Origin: Tardiphaga sp. P9-11
GTDB taxonomy: Bacteria > Pseudomonadota > Alphaproteobacteria > Rhizobiales > Xanthobacteraceae
Length of the DNA stretch: 64,000 nt
Direction of reading: 5' to 3'
Assembly (NCBI RefSeq): GCF_008329525.1
Contig: NZ_NPKQ01000001.1
Span: forward strand, 434,001 to 498,000
Numbering within the stretch: position 1 is the first letter of the stretch; each line of letters begins with the position of its first letter. Below are positions 5,797 through 35,254 of the stretch, piece after piece. The notes below the pieces were generated by a model, which was not told the DNA's origin, ran no database searches, and saw only the letters and a program-made list of their open reading frames with translations. The position numbers and the translations under genes are program-made.

Positions 5797-6027
5797 TTTC
5801 AGTCATTTAACGCGAATTCGGGACGAATATGACCGGTTTTGCGCCTGCATGTCCAAGTGGTGGATCAAACCAGCGATTTTCTAGCGTCCAAGTTGTGGCG
5901 GGGCATCCTTGTGGAGTGCCGCAGGCCTATGATAGCCACTCGCCGCGATCACCTCATTCGACCGTTCGTGCGGAGGCCCGCGACGAACCGGTTCCACCCG
6001 CCCGGCAGCGCTTCAGGAGAACTTTCG

Positions 6028-6507
6028 ATGGCAAACGGCAACGGTACCCCTCCGGAGCAGTCCCCCCCCCAACTCAATGTACTGGCGCAGTACACCAAGG
6101 ATCTCTCCTTCGAGAATCCGAACGCGCCGGCCTCGCTGGCACCGCAGGCCCAGCAGCCAAACATCAACATCCAGATCAATGTCGGCGCCAACAATCTCTC
6201 CGAGAGCGAATATGAAGTGACGCTGTCGGTCGAGGGCAAGGCCGAGAACGCCGGCTCGGTGATGTTCTCGTTCGAGCTGGCCTATGCCGGCGTGTTCCGC
6301 ATCGTCAACGTGCCGCAGGAAAACCTGCACCCGCTGATCATGATCGAATGCCCGCGCCTACTGTTCCCGTTTGCGCGCGAGATCATCGCCACTGCAGTGC
6401 GCGATGGCGGCTTCCCGCCGCTGATGCTCGATCCGGTGGATTTCGTCGGTCTGTATCGCCAGAACATGGAACGCCAGGCTCAGGTCGAGGCTGGCAAGTC
6501 GAACTAA
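6028..6507 (+). CDS. secB: Protein-export chaperone SecB
   Basis: 159 residues. SecB is the cytosolic tetrameric chaperone that keeps precursors unfolded for SecA. The typical segments are [42 protein letters not shown] and the [15 protein letters not shown] block. An AGGAGA ribosome-binding site at 6015-6020 fixes this ATG over the longer frame from 5839. Codons near residue 12 contain a run of nine C (6062-6070). The gene is divergent from tim44 and convergent with dnaQ. Confidence 0.97.
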
Positions 6508-7919: not shown

Positions 7920-8528
7920 TCAGATCGCGATCATCTCTTCGCCGCGTAGGAAACTCAGCAGCGGCAGCAACGGCAGACCAAGAATGGTGAAGTGATCGCC
8001 TTCGATCAGCTCGAACAGATGCACGCCCAGTCCTTCGAGCTGATAGGCGCCGACACTTGCCGTCACCTTGTCGCCCGCAGCATCCAGATAGGCATTGATC
8101 GCCTGACCATCCAGCTTGCGCATGGTCATATGCGCCACGGAGACATTGGAAAACAACGTCGCGCCATCGCAAACGACGGCAAGCGCTGAATGCAATTCGT
8201 GAGTCCGGCCAGCAAGTGCGGCGAGTTGTTCGGCGGCCTGTTCGCGGCCGGCAGGTTTGCTGAACATCCGATCGCCCAGCGCCAGGGTTTGATCGGCACC
8301 AAGAACATAGCGGCCGGGATGACGCAGCGAAATAAAGGCGGCCTTGCGCTCAGCAAGCAAGGCTGCGATCTCGCCCGGCGCCGTCAAACTGGATTTCTGC
8401 TGGATGCCGCGCTCGTCTATATCTGCCGGCATCGCATCAAACGTAATGCCAGCATTCGCCAACAACTCACGACGCGCTAAACTCTGCGACGCCAGGATCA
8501 GCGGTTGCACGCCGCGCCAAATGGTCAT
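7920..8528 (-). CDS. Maf family nucleotide pyrophosphatase
   Basis: 202 residues. N-terminal [16 protein letters not shown] corresponds to the Maf SxSxRR signature, followed by VLGADQTL and the [11 protein letters not shown] segment. The family hydrolyses nucleoside triphosphates, including modified ones, to monophosphates. The exact substrate class (YhdE- or YceF-like) cannot be told from motifs alone. Its ATG overlaps the ppsR stop by 4 bp (ATGA). Confidence 0.92.
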
Positions 8529-9367
8529 TCGGACATCCTCTGACGCTGTCGATCAGCCAGCAGTTTCATGATGGCTGCCGCGGTTTCCTCGATGGAGCGA
8601 CGTGTCACTTCCAACAAAGCCCAGCCGTATTTGGCACTCAGCTTGCGCGCATAGGTCACTTCATCCGTGACCGACTGGCGATCGATATAATCGTCATTGG
8701 TCGTATCGCTACCAATACTCAGAAGCCGGTTCTGGCGGATCTGAATCAAGCGCTCCGGCGTCGCGTGCAGGCTGACCACCAGCGGATTTTTCAACGTCTC
8801 AAGCTGATGGGGAATGGGGATGCCGGGGACGAGCGGCACATTGGCCGTGCGCACACCGCGATTGGCAAGATAGATCGAGGTTGGCGTCTTCGATGTACGC
8901 GAGACGCCGACCAGAACCACGTCCGCTTCTTCGAGGCCTTCCACGTGCTGGCCGTCGTCATGCATCATCGAATAATTCAGCGCGTCGATACGCTTGAAAT
9001 ACTCGGCGTTGAGCGTGTGCTGTGCACCGACACGGCCGGTGGTGGACGCACCAAGATAGGCCTGAAACAGCTGCATCACTGGCCCGATGATCGACAGGCT
9101 CGGGCTGTTGATCTCCTGGCACTTGGCTTCCAACCGGCCGACCAGATCTTTTTCCAGCAGCGTGAAGAGAACGATGCCTGGCGCTTCCTCGATTTCGGAA
9201 AGCACGCGATCAAGCTGCTTCTGACTCCGCACGAGCGGATAGACATGTTCAACTGGCGTGACATTCGCGTATTGCGCCGCAACGGCGCGAGCCACCGTGA
9301 TCAGCGTCTCACCGGTCGAATCGGAGACCAGATGGAGATGAAAATAGCTGCCGGTGGTAGGCACCAT
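8525..9367 (-). CDS. ppsR: Pyruvate,phosphate dikinase / PEP synthase regulatory protein (DUF299)
   Basis: 280 residues. A bifunctional kinase/pyrophosphorylase family that switches PPDK or PEP synthase off and on. N-terminal [14 protein letters not shown] and the P-loop-like [15 protein letters not shown] (about residues 153-167) define the family. The C-terminal [10 protein letters not shown] stretch is also typical. It is the first gene on the left of the proposed origin. The DUF299 gene is the standard left neighbour of oriC in Caulobacter and Rickettsia. Confidence 0.93.
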
Positions 9368-9836
9368 GATCGTGTATGTCCTGTGAATCTCTGTGGAGCT
9401 TTTCCGGGATATCGACCATCGCCTCGGCGGGCCCGGGATAACTCGGTTTTTTCTTCACAGGGCTCATGAAGAGGAAAAGCTCTGAGGTTGCCTTGAATGA
9501 TAATGGGGTTATCCCGGTTTGTCTTGGGATAATCCAGTGCACGACAACGGTAAGCCCTTGCGCTGCATATTGAACTTGCATGCAGGCGACTTTGGGGAAA
9601 TCACGCGGTGATGTGCATAAGCGCGGGACAGTTCCGGGATTGTTTTGGGCGGCCACAATCCACTGTCACTTAGACTCAAACCTAAGATTCTATAAATATT
9701 ATTTAAGAGAAGGATGGCTTGCGGATAGTGCGGTGATCCGCTCTGTATCGGCGCATCCTGCAACGTGGCTTTCCGGTGAAATGTTCCGTTGTCAGCACGT
9801 ACGGTGTGATGCAGTGATGCTGGAAAGAACTTTCGA
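9368..9836. other. Proposed chromosomal replication origin (oriC)
   Basis: A 469-bp gap without a gene between divergent ppsR and hemJ. It holds four DnaA-box-like 9-mers: TTATCCCGG on the minus strand at 9433-9441, the same on the plus strand at 9509-9517, TTATCCCAA minus at 9524-9532, and an exact TTATGCACA minus at 9612-9620. An AT-rich tract follows at about 9662-9712 (CTATAAATATTATTTAAGA core), a candidate unwinding element. The nearest genes read away from it on both sides, and DUF299 flanks it as in other alphaproteobacteria. Function is inferred. Confidence 0.65.
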
Positions 9837-10259
9837 ATGTATGAATGGGCCAAGGCGCTGCATGTGATCGCCGTCATCTCCTGGATGGCAGGCATGCTCT
9901 ATCTGCCGCGACTGTTCGTCTATCACTGCGATGCGGAGATCGGCTCGAAGCAATCCGAAACCTTCAAGTTGATGGAGCGTCGCCTGCTCAAGGCGATCAT
10001 CAATCCAGCGATGATCGCCACCTGGATCCTTGGCTTGTATCTCGCCTGGGCAGGTCACTGGTTCAGTGCGGGCTGGTTTCACGCCAAACTGACGCTGGTG
10101 CTGCTGATGTCCGGCGTTCATGGCTTCCTAAGCGCCCGGGTGCGTGATTTTGCTCAGGACAAAAATACACGATCTTCAAAATTCTATCGCCTTATCAATG
10201 AGATACCGACGCTTTTGATGATCCTGATCGTGATTTTGGTGATCGTGAAGCCGTTCTAG
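9837..10259 (+). CDS. hemJ: Protoporphyrinogen oxidase HemJ
   Basis: 140 residues with four membrane spans, the normal size. HemJ oxidises protoporphyrinogen IX to protoporphyrin IX in the haem pathway. The family N-terminus KALHVIAVISWMAGMLYLPRLFVYH, with its conserved histidines, is intact, as are WHxK-type GWFHAKL and the RLINEIPT segment. A GGAAAGA site precedes the ATG. It usually accompanies hemE next to rho; hemE is absent here. Confidence 0.92.
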   Translation: MYEWAKALHVIAVISWMAGMLYLPRLFVYHCDAEIGSKQSETFKLMERRLLKAIINPAMIATWILGLYLAWAGHWFSAGWFHAKLTLVLLMSGVHGFLSARVRDFAQDKNTRSSKFYRLINEIPTLLMILIVILVIVKPF

Positions 10260-12106: not shown

Positions 12107-13441
12107 ATGCATCCACGCGACCAGACGATCTACGCACTGTCCTCCGGCCGTCCGCCAACGGCGATTGCCATTGTGCGCGTGTCGGGTCCGCAGGCCAGCC
12201 AGGCGCTGGAGCGTCTCGCTAAGAGGCCACTGACACCTCGAGTGGCGACCCATGTTCTTCTGTCGGACGAACAACTCGGCCCGATCGACGATGCGGTGGT
12301 GCTGTGGTTTCCGGGACCGGCCAGTGCAACCGGGGAAGATGTCGCCGAATTTCATATTCACGGCGGACGCGCAGTGCTGGCTTCCTTGTTTGAAGCACTG
12401 GCGGGGATCGACGGCTTGCGGCTGGCCGAGCCGGGCGAGTTTACCCGCCGCGCTTTCGAGAATGGCAAGCTCGACCTGACCGAGGCGGAAGGTCTCGACG
12501 ATCTCATCCATGCCGATACCGACCGGCAGCGCCGTCAGGCGCTGCGGCAATTGAAGGGATTGCTCGGCGACAAGGCACGCAACTGGCGCCAGCAGATCAT
12601 CGAAGCCCTGGCGCTGGTCGAGGTCGGCATCGATTTTTCCGACGAGGGCGATGTGTCCGCCGAATTGATGGCACCGGCTCTGGCAAAAGCATCGGCGCTC
12701 CATCGCGAGATCGAAGATGTGCTGGCGGCGCAGGGCCGAAGCGAGAGGTTGCGTGACGGGCTGGTAGTGGCCATCGCCGGCGAGCCAAATGTCGGGAAAT
12801 CGACGCTGATGAATCAGCTCGCCCGGCGAGACGTCGCGATCGTCTCGCCGCATGCGGGGACCACGCGGGATATCATCGAGATGCAGCTCGATCTGGACGG
12901 ATATCCGGTGACGATCATCGACACCGCCGGCATTCGTGAGACGGCTGATCCAGTGGAGGAGGAGGGCGTACGCCGGGCGCGGAGGCGGGCGGCCGAGGCG
13001 GATTTGGTCCTGTGGCTGGTCGACTCCAGCGCGGGAGCGTCAGATCCGGAGCAATGGCTGGCGGGATCTGAAACGCCGGTCTGGGTGGTCCGAAACAAGG
13101 TCGATCTGGTCCGGGATGCGTCGGCCGGGCCAGACCTGTTAATTGCAATCTCCGCAGAGCGCGGTGATGGCCTCGCGCAATTGTTGGCCCTGCTTGTCGA
13201 TTTCGCCGGTCGATATTTCGGGAGCGGAGAGGCCGGACTGATTACCCGGGAGCGGCAGCGTCTTTTGCTGCGCAGCACGTCGGGTTTGTTGCAGCATGCT
13301 GCAGCATCGGCTGAGCAAGGCGAAGAGTTCGTTGCCGAAGATATGCGTGCTGCAGCGCAGCAATTAGGGCGGTTGCTCGGGCGGGTGGATGTCGAGGATA
13401 TTCTCGATAGCATCTTTCGAGACTTTTGCATAGGTAAGTAA
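12107..13441 (+). CDS. mnmE: tRNA uridine-5-carboxymethylaminomethyl(34) synthesis GTPase MnmE
   Basis: 444 residues. With MnmG it modifies the wobble uridine of several tRNAs. N-terminal folate-binding domain ([42 protein letters not shown]), then the GTPase domain with GEPNVGKST near residues 225-233, DTAGIRET and NKVDL. The C-terminus [10 protein letters not shown]-like (residues [10 protein letters not shown]) carries the conserved Cys-x-GK end. The gene sits in the order rho-mnmE-mnmG-rsmG-parAB. Confidence 0.97.
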
Positions 13442-13610
13442 TATTTCTTTATTCATTTATATTTATTATGAATCATAATTCAGTTTAATAATCGCCAGTC
13501 CGCCATAGTTTTGAGCAAGGCGCAGCGCCCAAATAGTACACGCAAACTTGCAGAACGACCCAATAGCTTTGCCGCGAGACGCTTCTTGCAGTAGCGGTCG
13601 AAAGATCGAG

Positions 13611-13626
13611 TGTTTCACGTGAAACA
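13611..13626. other. parS centromere site 1
   Basis: TGTTTCACGTGAAACA, an exact 16-bp match to the canonical parS palindrome bound by ParB. It lies in the mnmE-mnmG gap, about 4 kb from parB. Confidence 0.93.
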
Positions 13627-13666
13627 CAAGCTTTGGCGAGCCGGAGTGAATATTCAGTTCTGACGT

Positions 13667-13682
13667 TGTTTCACGTGAAACA
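13667..13682. other. parS centromere site 2
   Basis: A second exact TGTTTCACGTGAAACA, 56 bp after the first (start to start) and just upstream of mnmG. The rest of the 295-bp gap between mnmE and mnmG shows no gene; its left part is AT-rich (TATTTCTTTATTCATTTATA from 13441). Confidence 0.93.
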
Positions 13683-13736
13683 GCTCCTGTGGATTTCTCT
13701 TCAATCCCGGCGTCACCCGCGCTAGAAGCTCCGCCC

Positions 13737-15613: not shown

Positions 15614-15629
15614 TGTTTCACGTGAAACA
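15614..15629. other. parS centromere site 3
   Basis: An exact TGTTTCACGTGAAACA six bases after the mnmG stop, extended by one base pair on each side (TTGTTTCACGTGAAACAA). Confidence 0.93.
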
Positions 15630-16550: not shown

Positions 16551-17261
16551 ATGGCGCAACGATCCCAGCAAGCTGCTCCCGCACCCCGGCTCGATGCCGA
16601 CAAGGCTGCGGCCCTGCGGCTGACACCTGTTTCACGTGAAACGGAGGACCGACTTGATCGCTACGTCGATCTGTTGCTGCAGTGGCAGGCCAAGACCAAT
16701 CTGATTTCGCCGGCGACGCTTCCAAATCTCTGGACGCGCCATATCTCGGATTCGTTGCAGCTTCTGAACCTCGCGCCGGGCGCAAAGACCTGGCTCGACT
16801 TCGGCAGCGGCGGCGGCTTTCCCGGTGTGGTGCTTGCTTGCGCCATGGGTGATCTTGCCGGCGGACATGTTCATCTCGTCGAGCGCAACGCCAAGAAGGC
16901 AGCGTTCCTGCGCGAAGCGCTACGTTTGACGCAAGCCCCGGGTACAGTTCACCTCGCTGACATCGGGGATAATGTGGATAGATTTCCCGCGCATGTCGAT
17001 TGCATCACCGCTCGTGCGGTTGCCTCGTTACATATCGTCATCGGTTTCGCCGAACCCTTCATGAAGGCGGGCACAAAAGCCTTATTCCTCAAGGGTCAAG
17101 ATGTAGAATCGGAATTGACCGAAGCTACTAGATATTGGAAACTAAACCCGCGCCTGCATGCCAGCCTGACCGGTGGACAAGGCTGGATCGTCGAACTCGA
17201 CCGGATCGAGCGACTGCCCCCGTCCGCAAACCAAAATGGCTACGCCAATGACCGTAATTGA
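16551..17261 (+). CDS. rsmG: 16S rRNA (guanine(527)-N(7))-methyltransferase RsmG
   Basis: About 236 residues from the ATG at 16551. It methylates G527 of 16S rRNA (formerly GidB). The SAM-binding DFGSGGGFPGVVLA and VERNAKKAAFLRE are present, and CITARAVASL marks the family. An ATG at 16521 is also possible and no clear ribosome-binding site decides. Codons for PVSRETE contain a parS-like palindrome. The end overlaps parA by 26 bp. Confidence 0.95.
   Translation: MAQRSQQAAPAPRLDADKAAALRLTPVSRETEDRLDRYVDLLLQWQAKTNLISPATLPNLWTRHISDSLQLLNLAPGAKTWLDFGSGGGFPGVVLACAMGDLAGGHVHLVERNAKKAAFLREALRLTQAPGTVHLADIGDNVDRFPAHVDCITARAVASLHIVIGFAEPFMKAGTKALFLKGQDVESELTEATRYWKLNPRLHASLTGGQGWIVELDRIERLPPSANQNGYANDRN
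16628..16643. other. parS-like site 4 inside rsmG
   Basis: TGTTTCACGTGAAACG, one base off the canonical parS at the last position, within the rsmG coding sequence (residues Val-Ser-Arg-Glu-Thr). The core TTTCACGTGAAA is intact, so ParB binding is expected. Confidence 0.8.
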
Positions 17262-18102
17262 TCAGGAATATCAAGAGCATACGTCAAGTACGGTGCCTGG
17301 ACATCCGCGCATTCTGGCGCTGGCGAATCAGAAGGGCGGCGTCGGAAAGACCACCACCGCGATCAATCTCGGTACGGCACTCGCTGCTATCGGCGAGCGC
17401 GTGCTGATCGTCGATCTCGATCCACAGGGCAATGCGTCCACCGGTCTCGGCATCGATCGCCGTAATCGTAACTGCTCGACCTATGACGTGCTGATCGGCG
17501 AAGCCCCGCTGCGCGATGCAGTCGTCGTCACGGCGGTGCCGCGTCTGCATATCGCGGCATCGACCATGGATCTTTCGGGCCTCGAGCTCGAACTCGGCTC
17601 GGCCCGCGATCGCGCCTTCCGGCTGCGCGATGCGATTGGCGAATTGAACAATAATGTCTCGCCGGGCTCCGACTACACCTATGTGCTGATCGATTGCCCG
17701 CCATCGCTCAATCTTCTGACGGTCAATGCGATGGCCGCCTCAGATGCGATTCTCGTTCCGTTGCAGTGTGAGTTCTTCGCGCTCGAAGGTCTGTCGCAAT
17801 TGCTGCAGACCGTGGAGCAGGTGCGCTCGACGCTGAACCCGAATCTCTCGATCCATGGCATCGTGATGACGATGTTCGATGCGCGCAACAACCTGTCGAA
17901 CCAGGTCGTTGCCGACGTCCGTGAATTCATGGGCAGCAAGGTCTATGAGACCATGATCCCGCGCAACGTCCGCATCTCGGAAGCGCCGTCCTACGGCAAG
18001 CCGGTGCTGGTCTATGATCTGAAGTGCTCGGGCTCTGAAGCCTATCTGCGGCTCGCGACCGAAGTGATCCAGCGCGAGCGCGATCTGCGCACCGCTCACT
18101 GA
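17236..18102 (+). CDS. parA: Chromosome partitioning ATPase ParA
   Basis: 288 residues. Deviant Walker A ANQKGGVGKTT at 30-40 (with the extra lysine), DLDPQGNASTGLG, DCPPSLNLLTVNA and IPRNVRISEAPSYGKPV are all ParA/Soj features. It forms the DNA-bound gradient that pulls ParB-parS complexes apart. The ATG at 17236 overlaps rsmG by 26 bp; a second ATG at 17248 is possible. parB follows after 80 bp, a gap containing a GGGTGGGC / GCCCACCC inverted repeat. Confidence 0.97.
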   Translation: MATPMTVIDQEYQEHTSSTVPGHPRILALANQKGGVGKTTTAINLGTALAAIGERVLIVDLDPQGNASTGLGIDRRNRNCSTYDVLIGEAPLRDAVVVTAVPRLHIAASTMDLSGLELELGSARDRAFRLRDAIGELNNNVSPGSDYTYVLIDCPPSLNLLTVNAMAASDAILVPLQCEFFALEGLSQLLQTVEQVRSTLNPNLSIHGIVMTMFDARNNLSNQVVADVREFMGSKVYETMIPRNVRISEAPSYGKPVLVYDLKCSGSEAYLRLATEVIQRERDLRTAH

Positions 18103-18182
18103 GCAAGTGGGGTGGGCCTGACGTAAGCGCGCCTTTGCCCACCCGACCACCGAATTTCTAGTTTGAGTACGGAGTAACCCGG

Positions 18183-19094
18183 ATGAGTTCGAAGGGATTG
18201 GCGATGGCTGATGAAGCGCGTTCGCGACTGGGCCGCGGCCTTGCAAGTCTGATCGGCGATGTCGGGGGTGAGGCCGCACATGTCGAGCGTCCTTCACGCA
18301 ATCAGCGCAAGGTGCCGATCGAATTCCTCAAGGCCAATCCGCGCAACCCGCGTCGGGCTTTTGCCGATGCTGAGCTCGCCGAACTCGCATCGTCGATCAA
18401 GCAGCATGGCGTGATCCAGCCGATCGTCGTACGTCCGGTGAAGGGCTCGAACGATCGCTTCGAGATCATTGCCGGCGAGCGCCGCTGGCGCGCGTCGCAG
18501 ATCGCAGGTCTGCATGAAGTGCCGATCGTGCCGCTCGACGTCACGGATTCGGCCGCGATGGAAATCGCGATTATCGAGAACGTGCAGCGCGAAGATCTCA
18601 ATGCGATGGAAGAGGCGCAGGGCTATCACGCGCTCGCCGAGACCTACAAGCATAGCCAGGAAGACATCGCGAAAATCGTCGGCAAGAGCCGCAGCCATGT
18701 CGCCAATATGATGCGCCTCACCAAGCTGCCAGTCGACGTGCAGGATCTGATCGCATCGGGTCAGCTCTCCAACGGTCACGCCCGCGCGCTGATCAATCTG
18801 CCGGATGCGTCGAGTGCCGCGAAGCGGATCATTGCTGAGGGACTGAACGTTCGTCAGACCGAAGCACTCGCGCATGAAGAGGGCGTGCCGGAACGCGCAC
18901 CGCAAAAGCCACGCACCTCGTCTCCCAAGGCGGCGAAGGATGCTGACACGATCGCACTGGAAAAGCGGGTGAGCGATGTGCTTGGGCTGAAGGTGTCGGT
19001 CGATCACCGCGATCCCGGCGGCACCGTGATCATCAAGTATCGTGATCTGGATCAGCTCGACGAAATTCTGAAGCGGCTGGATTCTGAGAACTAA
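18183..19094 (+). CDS. parB: Chromosome partitioning protein ParB
   Basis: 303 residues. N-terminal RLGRGLASLIGD (ParA-contact segment), the CTPase/N-terminal domain with GERRWRAS near residue 99, the helix-turn-helix IAKIVGKSRSHVANMMRL near 162-180 and a C-terminal dimerisation part (VDHRDPGGTVIIKYRDLDQLDEIL). A GGAG site 8-9 bp upstream supports this ATG. The stop overlaps the holA stop on the other strand. The four nearby parS palindromes are its expected targets. Confidence 0.97.
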   Translation: MSSKGLAMADEARSRLGRGLASLIGDVGGEAAHVERPSRNQRKVPIEFLKANPRNPRRAFADAELAELASSIKQHGVIQPIVVRPVKGSNDRFEIIAGERRWRASQIAGLHEVPIVPLDVTDSAAMEIAIIENVQREDLNAMEEAQGYHALAETYKHSQEDIAKIVGKSRSHVANMMRLTKLPVDVQDLIASGQLSNGHARALINLPDASSAAKRIIAEGLNVRQTEALAHEEGVPERAPQKPRTSSPKAAKDADTIALEKRVSDVLGLKVSVDHRDPGGTVIIKYRDLDQLDEILKRLDSEN

Positions 19095-31208: not shown

Positions 31209-33692
31209 TCAGAACCCGCTTTCTTCTTCTTCGATCAGAATCTCGCGTTTACCGGCATGGTTGGGCTGACCGACGATGCCTTCATTCTCCATCCGCTCTA
31301 TCAACGACGCTGCGCGATTGTAACCGATCTGCAGCCGGCGCTGGATGTAGCTGGTCGACGCCTTGCGGTCGCGTTTCACGATGGCAACGGCTTGCTGGAA
31401 CAGATCGCCACCACCGCCATCGGCACCCATGCCGGTGGAATCGAATACCGCGCCGTCCTCGCCTTCTTCCGGTTCTTCGGCGGTGACCGCCTCGAGATAT
31501 TCCGGCTCGCCCTGCGTCTTGAGATGGCGAACGACCTTCTCGACTTCCTCGTCCGACACGAAAGGTCCGTGCACGCGCGAGATGCGTCCGCCGCCCGCCA
31601 TATAGAGCATGTCGCCGCGGCCGAGCAGCTGCTCGGCGCCCATCTCGCCGAGAATAGTGCGGCTGTCGATCTTCGACGTCACCTGGAAGGAGATGCGCGT
31701 CGGGAAGTTGGCCTTGATCGTGCCGGTGATGACGTCCACCGACGGACGCTGCGTCGCGAGGACGACGTGGAGACCGGCGGCGCGTGCCATCTGCGCGAGG
31801 CGCTGCACCAGGCCTTCGATGTCCTTGCCGGCGACCATCATCAGGTCGGCCATTTCGTCGACAATGATGACGATGTAGGGCAGCGGCGCGAGATCGAGCT
31901 TCTCTTCCTCGTAGATCGCCTTGCCGGTTTCCTTGTCAAAGCCGGTGTGAACGGTACGCGAGAGCTCCTCGCCCTTGGCCTTGGCCTCGACGAGGCGCTG
32001 ATTGTAGCCATCGATGTTGCGGACGCCGAGCTTGGCCATGCGCTTGTAGCGCTCTTCCATCTCGCGCACCGCCCATTTCAGAGCGACGACGGCCTTCTTT
32101 GGGTCGGTGACGACGGGCGTCAGCAGATGCGGAATGCCATCATAGACCGAAAGTTCGAGCATCTTCGGATCGACCATGATGAGGCGGCACTGATCCGGCC
32201 TCAACCGGTAGACCAGGCTGAGGATCATGGTGTTGATGGCGACCGACTTGCCCGAACCGGTGGTACCGGCGATCAGCATATGCGGTGTGCGCGCAAGATC
32301 GATAATGATCGATTCGCCGCCGATATTCTTGCCGAGGCAGAGCGGAAGCTTGATGCCCTCGTTGTTGTCCTGCACGGTCAGCAGCTCGCGCAGGTAGACG
32401 TTCTCGCGATGTGCGTTCGGCAATTCGATGCCGATGGCATTGCGGCCCGGCACCACGGCGACGCGCGCGGACAGTGCGCTCATGGAGCGTGCGATGTCGT
32501 CGGCGAGGCCGATCACGCGCGACGACTTGATGCCCGGTGCGGGCTCGAGTTCGTACAGCGTGACGACGGGGCCGGGATTGGCTTTGACGATCTCGCCGCG
32601 GACGCCGAAATCCTGCAGCACGCCTTCCAGCGCGCGCGAATTGGCTTCGAGCTCGGCCTTGCTGAGCGGCTTGCGATCTGCGGCTTTCGGCGCGGTGAGC
32701 ATGCCGACGGAGGGCAGTTCGAACTTGCCATTCGATTTGCGGGCCGGCTCCTTGCCGGCAGATTTCTTGCGGGGGGCGCGCGCGACCGGCTCCTCTTCCT
32801 CCTCTTCCTCGTAGTCGTGCTCTTCGTCCTCGTCGTGACCGCTGTTGTCGTCATCATGCGGCGCGATGGAGGGACTGTTGCGGCGACCGCCGAGATTGGG
32901 TTCCTGGCGCTCGAAGGACGCCGCGCGCGCCTTGGGCTCGCTTGCAACCATCTTGCCATAGACCAACGAGAGGAGACGGCCGAGACGCGCCTTCGCGCTC
33001 ATCACGGCATGGGCGGCCCAGCCCAGCGAAACCGCGATCGAGCCGCGATCGCGGGTCTCATCTTCCTCGAATGGCTCGTCGTCTTCCTCGATGTCGATCT
33101 CGGCAAACTCCTCCTTTGCCTGCGCGCCATAACCGCAGGCGATGAAGAAGGTCACGATCATCGCCGCGCAGAGAAGAAAGCCGAGAACGAAGCGATAGAT
33201 AAAGCCGACGGGACCGAAGATCACCGCGGGGGCGCGAAACAGCGCGTCACCGACCACGCCGCCGACGCCGGTTGGCAATGGCCATGAGCCACCATGCTGC
33301 CAGCAGCTCGCAAAGCCTGATGCGATGATGGTGCAGAGAATCCAGCAACCGATGCGCAGCGCTTCGCGATCGAAATGCCGATGCGTCATCATCCGCCAGC
33401 CCCAGACGGCGACGGTGAGAATCATCATGATCGCGCCAAGGCCGAGGATCTGCATCAGCAGATCGGCGCCGATCGCGCCGGGATAACCGGCGACATTGCG
33501 GATCGCACGCGAGGTGGCATGGCTCAGGCTCGGGTCCTGCACGGACCAGGTCATCATCGCCGCCGCCGCGACACCTGCGGCGCAGACCAGGCCAAAGCCC
33601 GCCAGTTCACGCAGCCGTCGTCCCAGCATCTCGCGAATTGACGCGGGCAGGTGGCCGACGAGAGGAATGACGCGTTCGATCGTGGTGCTCAT
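31209..33692 (-). CDS. ftsK: DNA translocase FtsK
   Basis: 827 residues. An N-terminal membrane part with about four spans (residues ~25-185), then an acidic and low-complexity linker (including EEEEEEEP), then the motor domain with Walker [13 protein letters not shown] near residue 475 and Walker [15 protein letters not shown], and the C-terminal gamma winged helix ([27 protein letters not shown]) that reads KOPS. It moves DNA at the septum and triggers dimer resolution. It starts 38 bp after the aminotransferase gene. Confidence 0.96.
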
Positions 33693-34960: not shown

Positions 34961-35130
34961 CAGGAAAACGCCAGTACTTTCAAGGCAGCCGATCGCCCCA
35001 TGAGATCGGCTGAAACGGGATCAAACCACCATAGATACGGCGAGGTTAAGACGCGATTAACCATCGAGGTATGCGCCTTGCGATCGTACATTCAGCGGCC
35101 GTCCAAGCGGGCGCGCAAACAGGATGTCAC

Positions 35131-35170
35131 CCCAAAAAGTGAAGGGCCCCAGCTTGCGCTGGAGCCCTTC
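35131..35170 (-). terminator. Terminator of the glnK-amtB unit
   Basis: On the minus strand GAAGGGCTCCAGC and GCTGGGGCCCTTC form a 13-bp stem (one mismatch) around a four-base loop, followed by ACTTTTTGG. It lies 85 bp beyond the amtB stop. There is no T-run on the plus strand. The remaining bases up to the aminotransferase gene show nothing else. Confidence 0.75.
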
Positions 35171-35254
35171 GACGGATGGAGCATTGCCGGGTATGTGCCC
35201 CAACCGATCTCTTGAAACGCTCCGGGCGATCACTCGTCCGAAGCGTTTTGGCGC

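Follow-up and report, generated by a model that had tools for sequence, protein, structure and literature searches.

Our computational analysis places the chromosomal origin of replication of Tardiphaga sp. P9-11 in the 469-bp intergenic gap between ppsR and hemJ (9368..9836), within a window of 64,000 nucleotides (the whole stretch of DNA analysed, positions 434001-498000 of a 1.36-Mb contig; the host genome comprises 6.16 Mb in 30 contigs). We hold the reading of this gap as a DnaA-dependent oriC to be about 95% probable. Its computed basis is the location of the GC-skew switch within a few kilobases, conservation, a cluster of DnaA boxes, an AT-rich tract, and a boundary gene known from hemE/DUF299-type origins. 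A candidate oriC at this place had been put forward in the original prediction, and the skew minimum and conservation in relatives now support it, DnaA binding being predicted. In the available text of a published account, the Caulobacter origin lies between the DUF299/COG1806 gene and hemE, and that of Rickettsia prowazekii is placed there too (PMC1914354); the ppsR–hemJ gap is with high probability a real origin, at the site to be expected in an alphaproteobacterium.

The boundary genes and the neighboring partition genes are as follows.

8525..9367, minus strand, ppsR (DUF299 / COG1806, Kinase-PPPase), left boundary (PF03618, 6.3e-88; NF003742)
9837..10259, plus strand, hemJ, right boundary (TIGR00701, 1.8e-50; PF03653)
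17173..19094, plus strand, parA-parB (parB: TIGR00180, 2.6e-56, above cut-off)

By NCBIfam, parA encodes a ParA/MinD-like ATPase, with scores below the cut-offs of those models. Genes read away from the gap on both sides, dnaQ, coaE, maf and ppsR on the minus strand to its left and hemJ, rho, mnmE, mnmG, rsmG, parA and parB on the plus strand to its right. This part of the predicted strand flip stands, while its proposed beginning at secB does not: secB (5839-6507) is a plus-strand gene transcribed towards the gap, so that the divergence starts at dnaQ–coaE–maf–ppsR. Two open reading frames overlap the gap, 9509-9895 on the minus strand and 8765-9469 on the plus strand; neither has a Pfam match above cut-off, and the former has no NCBIfam match either, in agreement with the earlier description of the gap as gene-free. 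The likeness to the origin surroundings of Caulobacter and Rickettsia, also claimed earlier, holds for the DUF299 gene on the left and not for the right boundary, which is hemJ rather than hemE both here and in every one of the 79 scorable named relatives; hemE was confirmed there in one order member tested (L057). We take hemJ in place of hemE as a change of boundary, the origin type being set by the position beside DUF299. The dnaA gene lies at 641.7-643.2 kb of the same contig, 198 kb from the gap.

The GC skew changes sign close to the gap. When the 400 kb centred on it are divided into 10-kb bins, 18 of the 20 bins to the left have negative skew and 19 of the 20 to the right have positive skew; the cumulative minimum falls at contig position 446159 (window position 12159), 2.3 kb from the gap. 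The sign change that the original prediction had named as a check also appears in samples from the rest of the contig (negative in 6/6 to the left, positive in 13/14 to the right) and in a second genome of the genus, G066. On a 6.26-Mb contig of the latter, whose homologous gap lies at 3.629 Mb, 10 of 11 samples of 20 kb taken between 0.42 and 3.54 Mb have negative skew and 7 of 8 taken between 3.74 and 5.90 Mb have positive skew; at 0.10 Mb the sign is positive once more. The switch is thus resolved to a few kilobases from the gap on its own contig and bracketed to 0.2 Mb in G066. The minimum falls in the stretch that separates this gap from the parS cluster described below, and skew alone cannot separate places 4 kb apart. 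The KOPS-like motif GGGNAGGG of E. coli leans as expected over 400 kb, with small counts (2 plus and 9 minus to the left, 8 plus and 4 minus to the right).

How well is the gap preserved among relatives? The nearest named relatives by ppsR are Tardiphaga robiniae and the like, and not Bradyrhizobium in the narrow sense, which had been suggested for the comparison. From 80 named relatives one (L077) was dropped, hemJ being absent on its short locus, and the order ppsR–gap–hemJ is kept in 79 of the 79 that could be scored. Their gaps, 411-603 bp long, form together with the one studied here the 80 aligned gaps, or rows, on which the counts below are based. Conservation in relatives, which the original prediction had named as a check, is seen in this alignment for the gap and for most of its box positions. 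Among the first 30 loci of the DNA search, L049 and L050 are second matches in genomes that another locus already represents, a boundary gene is missing from L030 and L044, and the first alignment excludes L045 and L046, whose gaps measure 1.4 kb. The wider samples comprise 60 of 123 matches in the order, hand-picked down the ranking (one, L067, belongs to the window's own family), 40 of 89 matches in the class, hand-picked in the same manner, and 20 of 118 matches in the family, one per genus, from 20 genera unmatched by the DNA search. In L045 and L046, which come from two family genomes (G068 and G043), the ppsR–hemJ spacing is 1.4 kb compared with about 0.47 kb elsewhere, possibly reflecting a retained hemE or an insertion.

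The following positions in the gap resemble DnaA boxes; mismatches are counted against TTATCCACA and fractions refer to the 80 rows.

9382..9390, minus strand, DnaA-box-like AGATTCACA: CACA end in 71/80, at most 2 mismatches in 14/80
9392..9400, minus strand, DnaA-box-like AGCTCCACA: CACA end in 70/80, at most 2 mismatches in 9/80
9433..9441, minus strand, DnaA-box-like TTATCCCGG: TTATCC start in 63/80 with variable last bases, at most 2 mismatches in 17/80
9451..9459, plus strand, predicted DnaA box TTCTTCACA, missed by the original prediction: at most 2 mismatches in 77/80, CACA end in 80/80
9509..9517, plus strand, box position with TTATCCCGG in this genome: 1/80 rows (this one)
9512..9520, minus strand, AAATCCACA-like box on the reverse strand: at most 2 mismatches in 45/80 rows, not in this genome
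9524..9532, minus strand, DnaA-box-like TTATCCCAA: at most 2 mismatches in 47/80, TTATCC in 17/80
9612..9620, minus strand, predicted DnaA box TTATGCACA (TTGTTCACA in 44/80): at most 2 mismatches in 66/80, CACA in 77/80
9656..9664, plus strand, weak box-like CAATCCACT, adjoining the AT-rich tract and pointing into it: 3 mismatches

At five positions a majority of the 80 rows have at most two mismatches to TTATCCACA, and three further positions (9382, 9392 and 9433) retain part of the box in most rows. By this alignment the box positions are old, though their letters change. In this gap a perfect TTATCCACA is absent, and four sites lie within two mismatches of it (9451 on the plus strand; 9524, 9612 and 9720 on the minus strand), a number also reached by 0.18% of distant 469-bp windows. 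The three TTATCCCRR words reported earlier are indeed present, at 9433 (minus), 9509 (plus) and 9524 (minus). A fourth in the window lies at 33478; shuffles of the window average 0.79 copies, and 0 of 100 reached four. Of the 96 copies in the genome, three within 100 bp occur only in the ppsR–hemJ gap, and the shorter TTATCC, found three times in the gap, reaches at most two in distant 469-bp stretches within 400 kb. The exact TTATGCACA was likewise found as predicted, in one copy at 9612 (minus), which is unremarkable alone because 33 of 100 shuffles hold at least one. As a side observation, the 96 genomic copies of TTATCCCRR compare with 41 for the same pattern reversed.

The original prediction singled out TTATCCCGG as a special box type. 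This view did not survive the comparison: the copy at 9509 is private to this genome, the copy at 9433 is conserved, and the reading helix of DnaA is of the standard kind. The helix-turn-helix keeps GGRDHTTV as in PDB chain 8btg_A, which we take to be Bacillus subtilis DnaA, and domain IV is likewise standard. Retention of GGRDHTTV makes a new specificity unlikely, and we rejected TTATCCCGG as the mark of one, given the standard helix and only one conserved beside one private site. A family-specific change in DnaA behind the odd tract described below was also rejected: comparing 31 group rows (among which this genome appears both as the query and as L254) with 20 others, five of them from other genera of the same family, we found 15 group-specific positions, none of which falls in the GGRDHTTV helix. 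A second DnaA-like frame, 46% identical and with two internal TGA stops, was seen in another genome (G022:C13:11515-12984).

The basal unwinding system (BUS) rule, as given in excerpts of PMC8287927, calls for a DnaA box with at most two mismatches, a spacer of 0-16 nucleotides, and at least three NAN trios. The trio test yields three candidate places in the gap on both strands, all of which are reported here: the weak box at 9656 listed above and two units that appear below with the tract.

9465..9479, plus strand, five NAN trios (CAT GAA GAG GAA AAG), 5 nt past the 9451 box and outside the AT-rich tract
9662..9712, AT-rich tract, predicted DNA unwinding element (DUE): 73% AT, holding the top conserved 15-mer
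9696..9728, minus strand, BUS-like unit: box CTATCCGCA at 9720-9728, 15-nt spacer, trios AAA-TAA-TAT at 9696-9704; box with at most 2 mismatches in 62/80

The tract, at the place where the original prediction had put it, contains a best 51-mer that 0.03% of the 51-mers in 400 kb match in AT content, and the best conserved 15-mer of the gap, GACTCAAACCTAAGA (9673-9687), has a mean of 0.97 in the 80-row alignment. By the published rule, the formally best unit is 9451-9479, away from the tract, with five trios in 4/80 gaps (this one and L073-L075) and at least three in 41/80. The unit at 9720 has at least three trios, the rule minimum, in 58/80 related rows including this one, a run of three that 22.5% of shuffles also reach. 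The plus-strand unit at 9656 fails the rule here, its box having three mismatches and its best run one trio; across the 80 rows this site has two mismatches in 4, three in 38, and four or five in 38, and a run of at least three trios follows in 14. What stands after the spacer is a near-invariant sequence, ACT-TAG-ACT-CAA-ACC-TAA-GAT, with a middle A in trios 2, 4, 6 and 7 and a middle C in trios 1, 3 and 5, each in 69-79 of 80 rows.

Upstream of ppsR on the plus strand, BUS-like arrays of at least five trios occur in 15/60 order genomes (0.7% of shuffles) and in 6/40 class genomes (0.5% of shuffles), compared with 2/60 and 1/40, respectively, on the minus strand. The 15 order units begin at a distance of 334-414 bp from where the ppsR match starts, eight with a TAATCCAC box and eight with a 3-nt spacer. 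The 9656 sequence CAATCCACT resembles these TAATCCAC boxes and, followed by GTC, is separated by 289 bp from the start of ppsR, which makes its place similar, though not identical, to that of the order units. The 19-mer core of the tract was rejected as a signature for the order as a whole: at up to two mismatches it occurs in this genome alone among 150 order genomes, by a pattern that allows no insertions, and in the same-family genomes G024, G064 and G086 of that sample the core is present but interrupted by an inserted T. As in the B. subtilis oriC, a box, a spacer and 5-8 NAN trios are found in a share of the order and class relatives, and candidate units are present here (five-trio 9451-9479, plus; three-trio 9696-9728, minus); unlike in that system, the invariant plus-strand core CACTTAGACTCAAACCTAAGA beside the tract lacks a NAN-trio run at the allowed distance.

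It could be argued that the gap is a mere promoter region of ppsR and hemJ, with transcription-factor sites as its conserved blocks. The gap does divide divergent genes, and blocks conserved in the alignment near 9375-9400 adjoin the ppsR start, yet the conserved AT-rich core sits about 150 bp away from hemJ, and promoters would leave unaccounted for a skew switch near the gap in two genomes and three TTATCC in 469 bp, unmatched in 400 kb. Members of the order moreover share a similar layout upstream of ppsR (box, trios or GANTC, AT-rich tract), and one such member tested has hemE, not hemJ, there. We give a promoter-only reading next to no weight and retain oriC as the very probable function of the gap.

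What distinguishes the tract, apart from its AT content, is the placement of two GANTC sites, the motif of the CcrM methylase.

9673..9677, GANTC (CcrM) site GACTC in the DUE: at this place in 75/80 aligned gaps
9686..9690, GANTC (CcrM) site GATTC in the DUE: at this place (GATTC/GAATC) in 78/80 aligned gaps

Two GANTC lie within the unwinding tract in 79/80 aligned gaps, at 35 per kb inside compared with 6 elsewhere in the gap. The 80 rows are related, and the wider samples therefore weigh more. A GANTC pair no more than 60 bp apart, at 250-460 bp from where the ppsR match begins, is found in 18/20 other family genera, 37/60 order genomes and 15/40 class genomes; the maxima for seven control palindromes of the same letters are 7, 6 and 4, respectively, the 7 belonging to AGNCT, which is able to overlap GACTC. 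Densities per kb in the tract and in the rest of the gap are 20.0 and 6.2 in the other family genera, 12.1 and 4.9 in the order, and 6.8 and 6.4 in the class; since the class density is hardly higher at the tract, the placement claim is valid for the order, not for the class. With three sites, the GANTC density of this gap is ordinary (8% of far windows have as many), and only placement and conservation are unusual. What the counts establish is placement within the predicted unwinding element. The genome encodes a CcrM-like methylase (N6_N4_Mtase and RAMA domains; the best NCBIfam model is CcrM, below its cut-off). For the Caulobacter origin, GANTC motifs have been described before in the accessible text of PMC3973325, and, according to excerpts of PMC11514494, ori1 of Agrobacterium is essentially unchanged under CcrM depletion or overexpression. 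The conserved pair makes CcrM action at the origin itself addressable by a two-site mutation.

To the right of the gap lie four matches to the motif TGTTTCACGTGAAACA.

13611..13626, plus strand, parS, exact TGTTTCACGTGAAACA (motif match)
13667..13682, plus strand, parS, exact TGTTTCACGTGAAACA (motif match)
15614..15629, plus strand, parS, exact TGTTTCACGTGAAACA (motif match)
16628..16643, plus strand, parS with one mismatch (motif match)

These sites, 3.8-6.8 kb right of the ppsR–hemJ gap, are the only four places in the genome within two mismatches of TGTTTCACGTGAAACA, all inside 3.1 kb near parAB. They bear on an earlier proposal for the origin in the same neighborhood. In the passages available of the Ori-Finder paper of 2008, TGTTTCACG is given as the DnaA box of the Bradyrhizobiaceae, and the predicted origins adjoin gidA (mnmG) and contain TGTTTCACGTGAAACA (PMC2275245). 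Transferred to this genome, the proposal would put the origin about 4 kb off, in the mnmE–mnmG gap, which lies equally near the skew minimum, opens with the 51-mer that has the highest AT content in the window (13442-13492, 88% AT), and carries at its right edge AAATCCACA (13688-13696, minus), within two mismatches of TTATCCACA. The AT content of that 51-mer weighs against placing oriC between ppsR and hemJ. Inside 13442-13688, however, no site comes within two mismatches of TTATCCACA, and TGTTTCACG itself differs from it at four positions (six as the reverse complement), and the DnaA reading helix is standard. The palindrome TGTTTCACGTGAAACA matches the sequence that a ParB review, in its excerpted text, describes for chromosomal parS, "mainly TGTTNCACGTGAAACA" (PMC7022226). 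In a scoring of the best first-look candidates, the mnmE–mnmG gap, which holds two of the parS sites, has a counterpart in 0/4 other genomes of the genus and matches over only 22-35 bp in five other family genomes; the ppsR gap, by contrast, aligns at 92-94% in those 4/4 same-genus genomes. Firing from beside gidA would also leave hemJ, rho and mnmE opposing the fork. An origin at gidA is in our judgement very improbable, and the comparison indicates that the family's "species-specific DnaA box" TGTTTCACG is the ParB centromere parS.

Among the literature matches listed, we noticed no correction of the TGTTTCACG assignment. If it is parS, origins and box statistics based on it would be some kilobases off and credited to the wrong protein. 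Two later papers, as far as their excerpts go, searched origins with this motif: the Oligotropha carboxidovorans genome paper gives four "DnaA box motifs (tgtttcacg)" via Ori-Finder (PMC3091675), and a study of Rhodobacteraceae includes it among the three motifs with which origins were sought (PMC6699656). In a separate observation on the former, the tgtttcacg words printed there are by sequence parS half sites (PMC3091675).

Taking the ppsR–hemJ gap as oriC, we infer DnaA binding, the site and strand of melting, helicase loading and ParB binding in the following model. DnaA would fill the boxes from 9382 to 9664 plus the box at 9720, and the complex would open the AT-rich tract at 9662-9712, whereupon helicase would be loaded and two forks would depart in opposite directions. 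ParB on the four parS, 3.8-6.8 kb to the right, would separate the new origins. The two GANTC in the tract would be exposed to CcrM methylation, and the tract would consequently be hemimethylated after firing. A more far-reaching reading, which we regard as unlikely, is that GANTC is selected in the oriC tract of the order and that its methylation or hemimethylation directly tunes opening; in the Tardiphaga–Bradyrhizobium group, GACTC would then lie in the single-strand-binding track, the trio array would have been replaced, and unwinding would perhaps proceed from the hemJ-side box. In E. coli, oriC carries Dam GATC sites and is subject to sequestration by SeqA. The gap studied here resembles E. 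coli oriC in having methylase sites within the unwinding tract and differs in the pair involved, GATC/Dam there and GANTC/CcrM here. The analysis provides a base-level origin map for the group of Tardiphaga, Bradyrhizobium, Rhodopseudomonas, Afipia and Nitrobacter. Two points are worth following: the correction to the DnaA box assumed for the family, and the presence of methylation sites within the unwinding tract.

Caulobacter crescentus Cori is one of the closest known systems, and Caulobacter origins were reportedly compared by Shaheen et al. in 2009. Both origins have a DUF299 boundary gene, DnaA boxes and an AT-rich tract, as well as GANTC motifs (for Cori, the excerpted PMC3973325); they differ in the other boundary gene, hemE there and hemJ here, and in that Cori has five CtrA sites (text available of PMC1914354) and this gap is without the full CtrA consensus. 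Features of the hemE/DUF299 type found here are the skew minimum (within a few kilobases), the ppsR boundary, the box cluster and the AT-rich region; the hemE boundary and the CtrA site TTAA-N7-TTAA are absent. Control by CtrA through the full consensus was rejected on the count of zero sites in the gap, which holds one TTAA, at 9703, and excerpts of PMC1914354 mention several putative alphaproteobacterial origins with no or few CtrA sites. The sole TTAA-N7-TTAA of the window lies at 35046-35060, about 75 bp from the BjrC68 sRNA gene (35134-35215).
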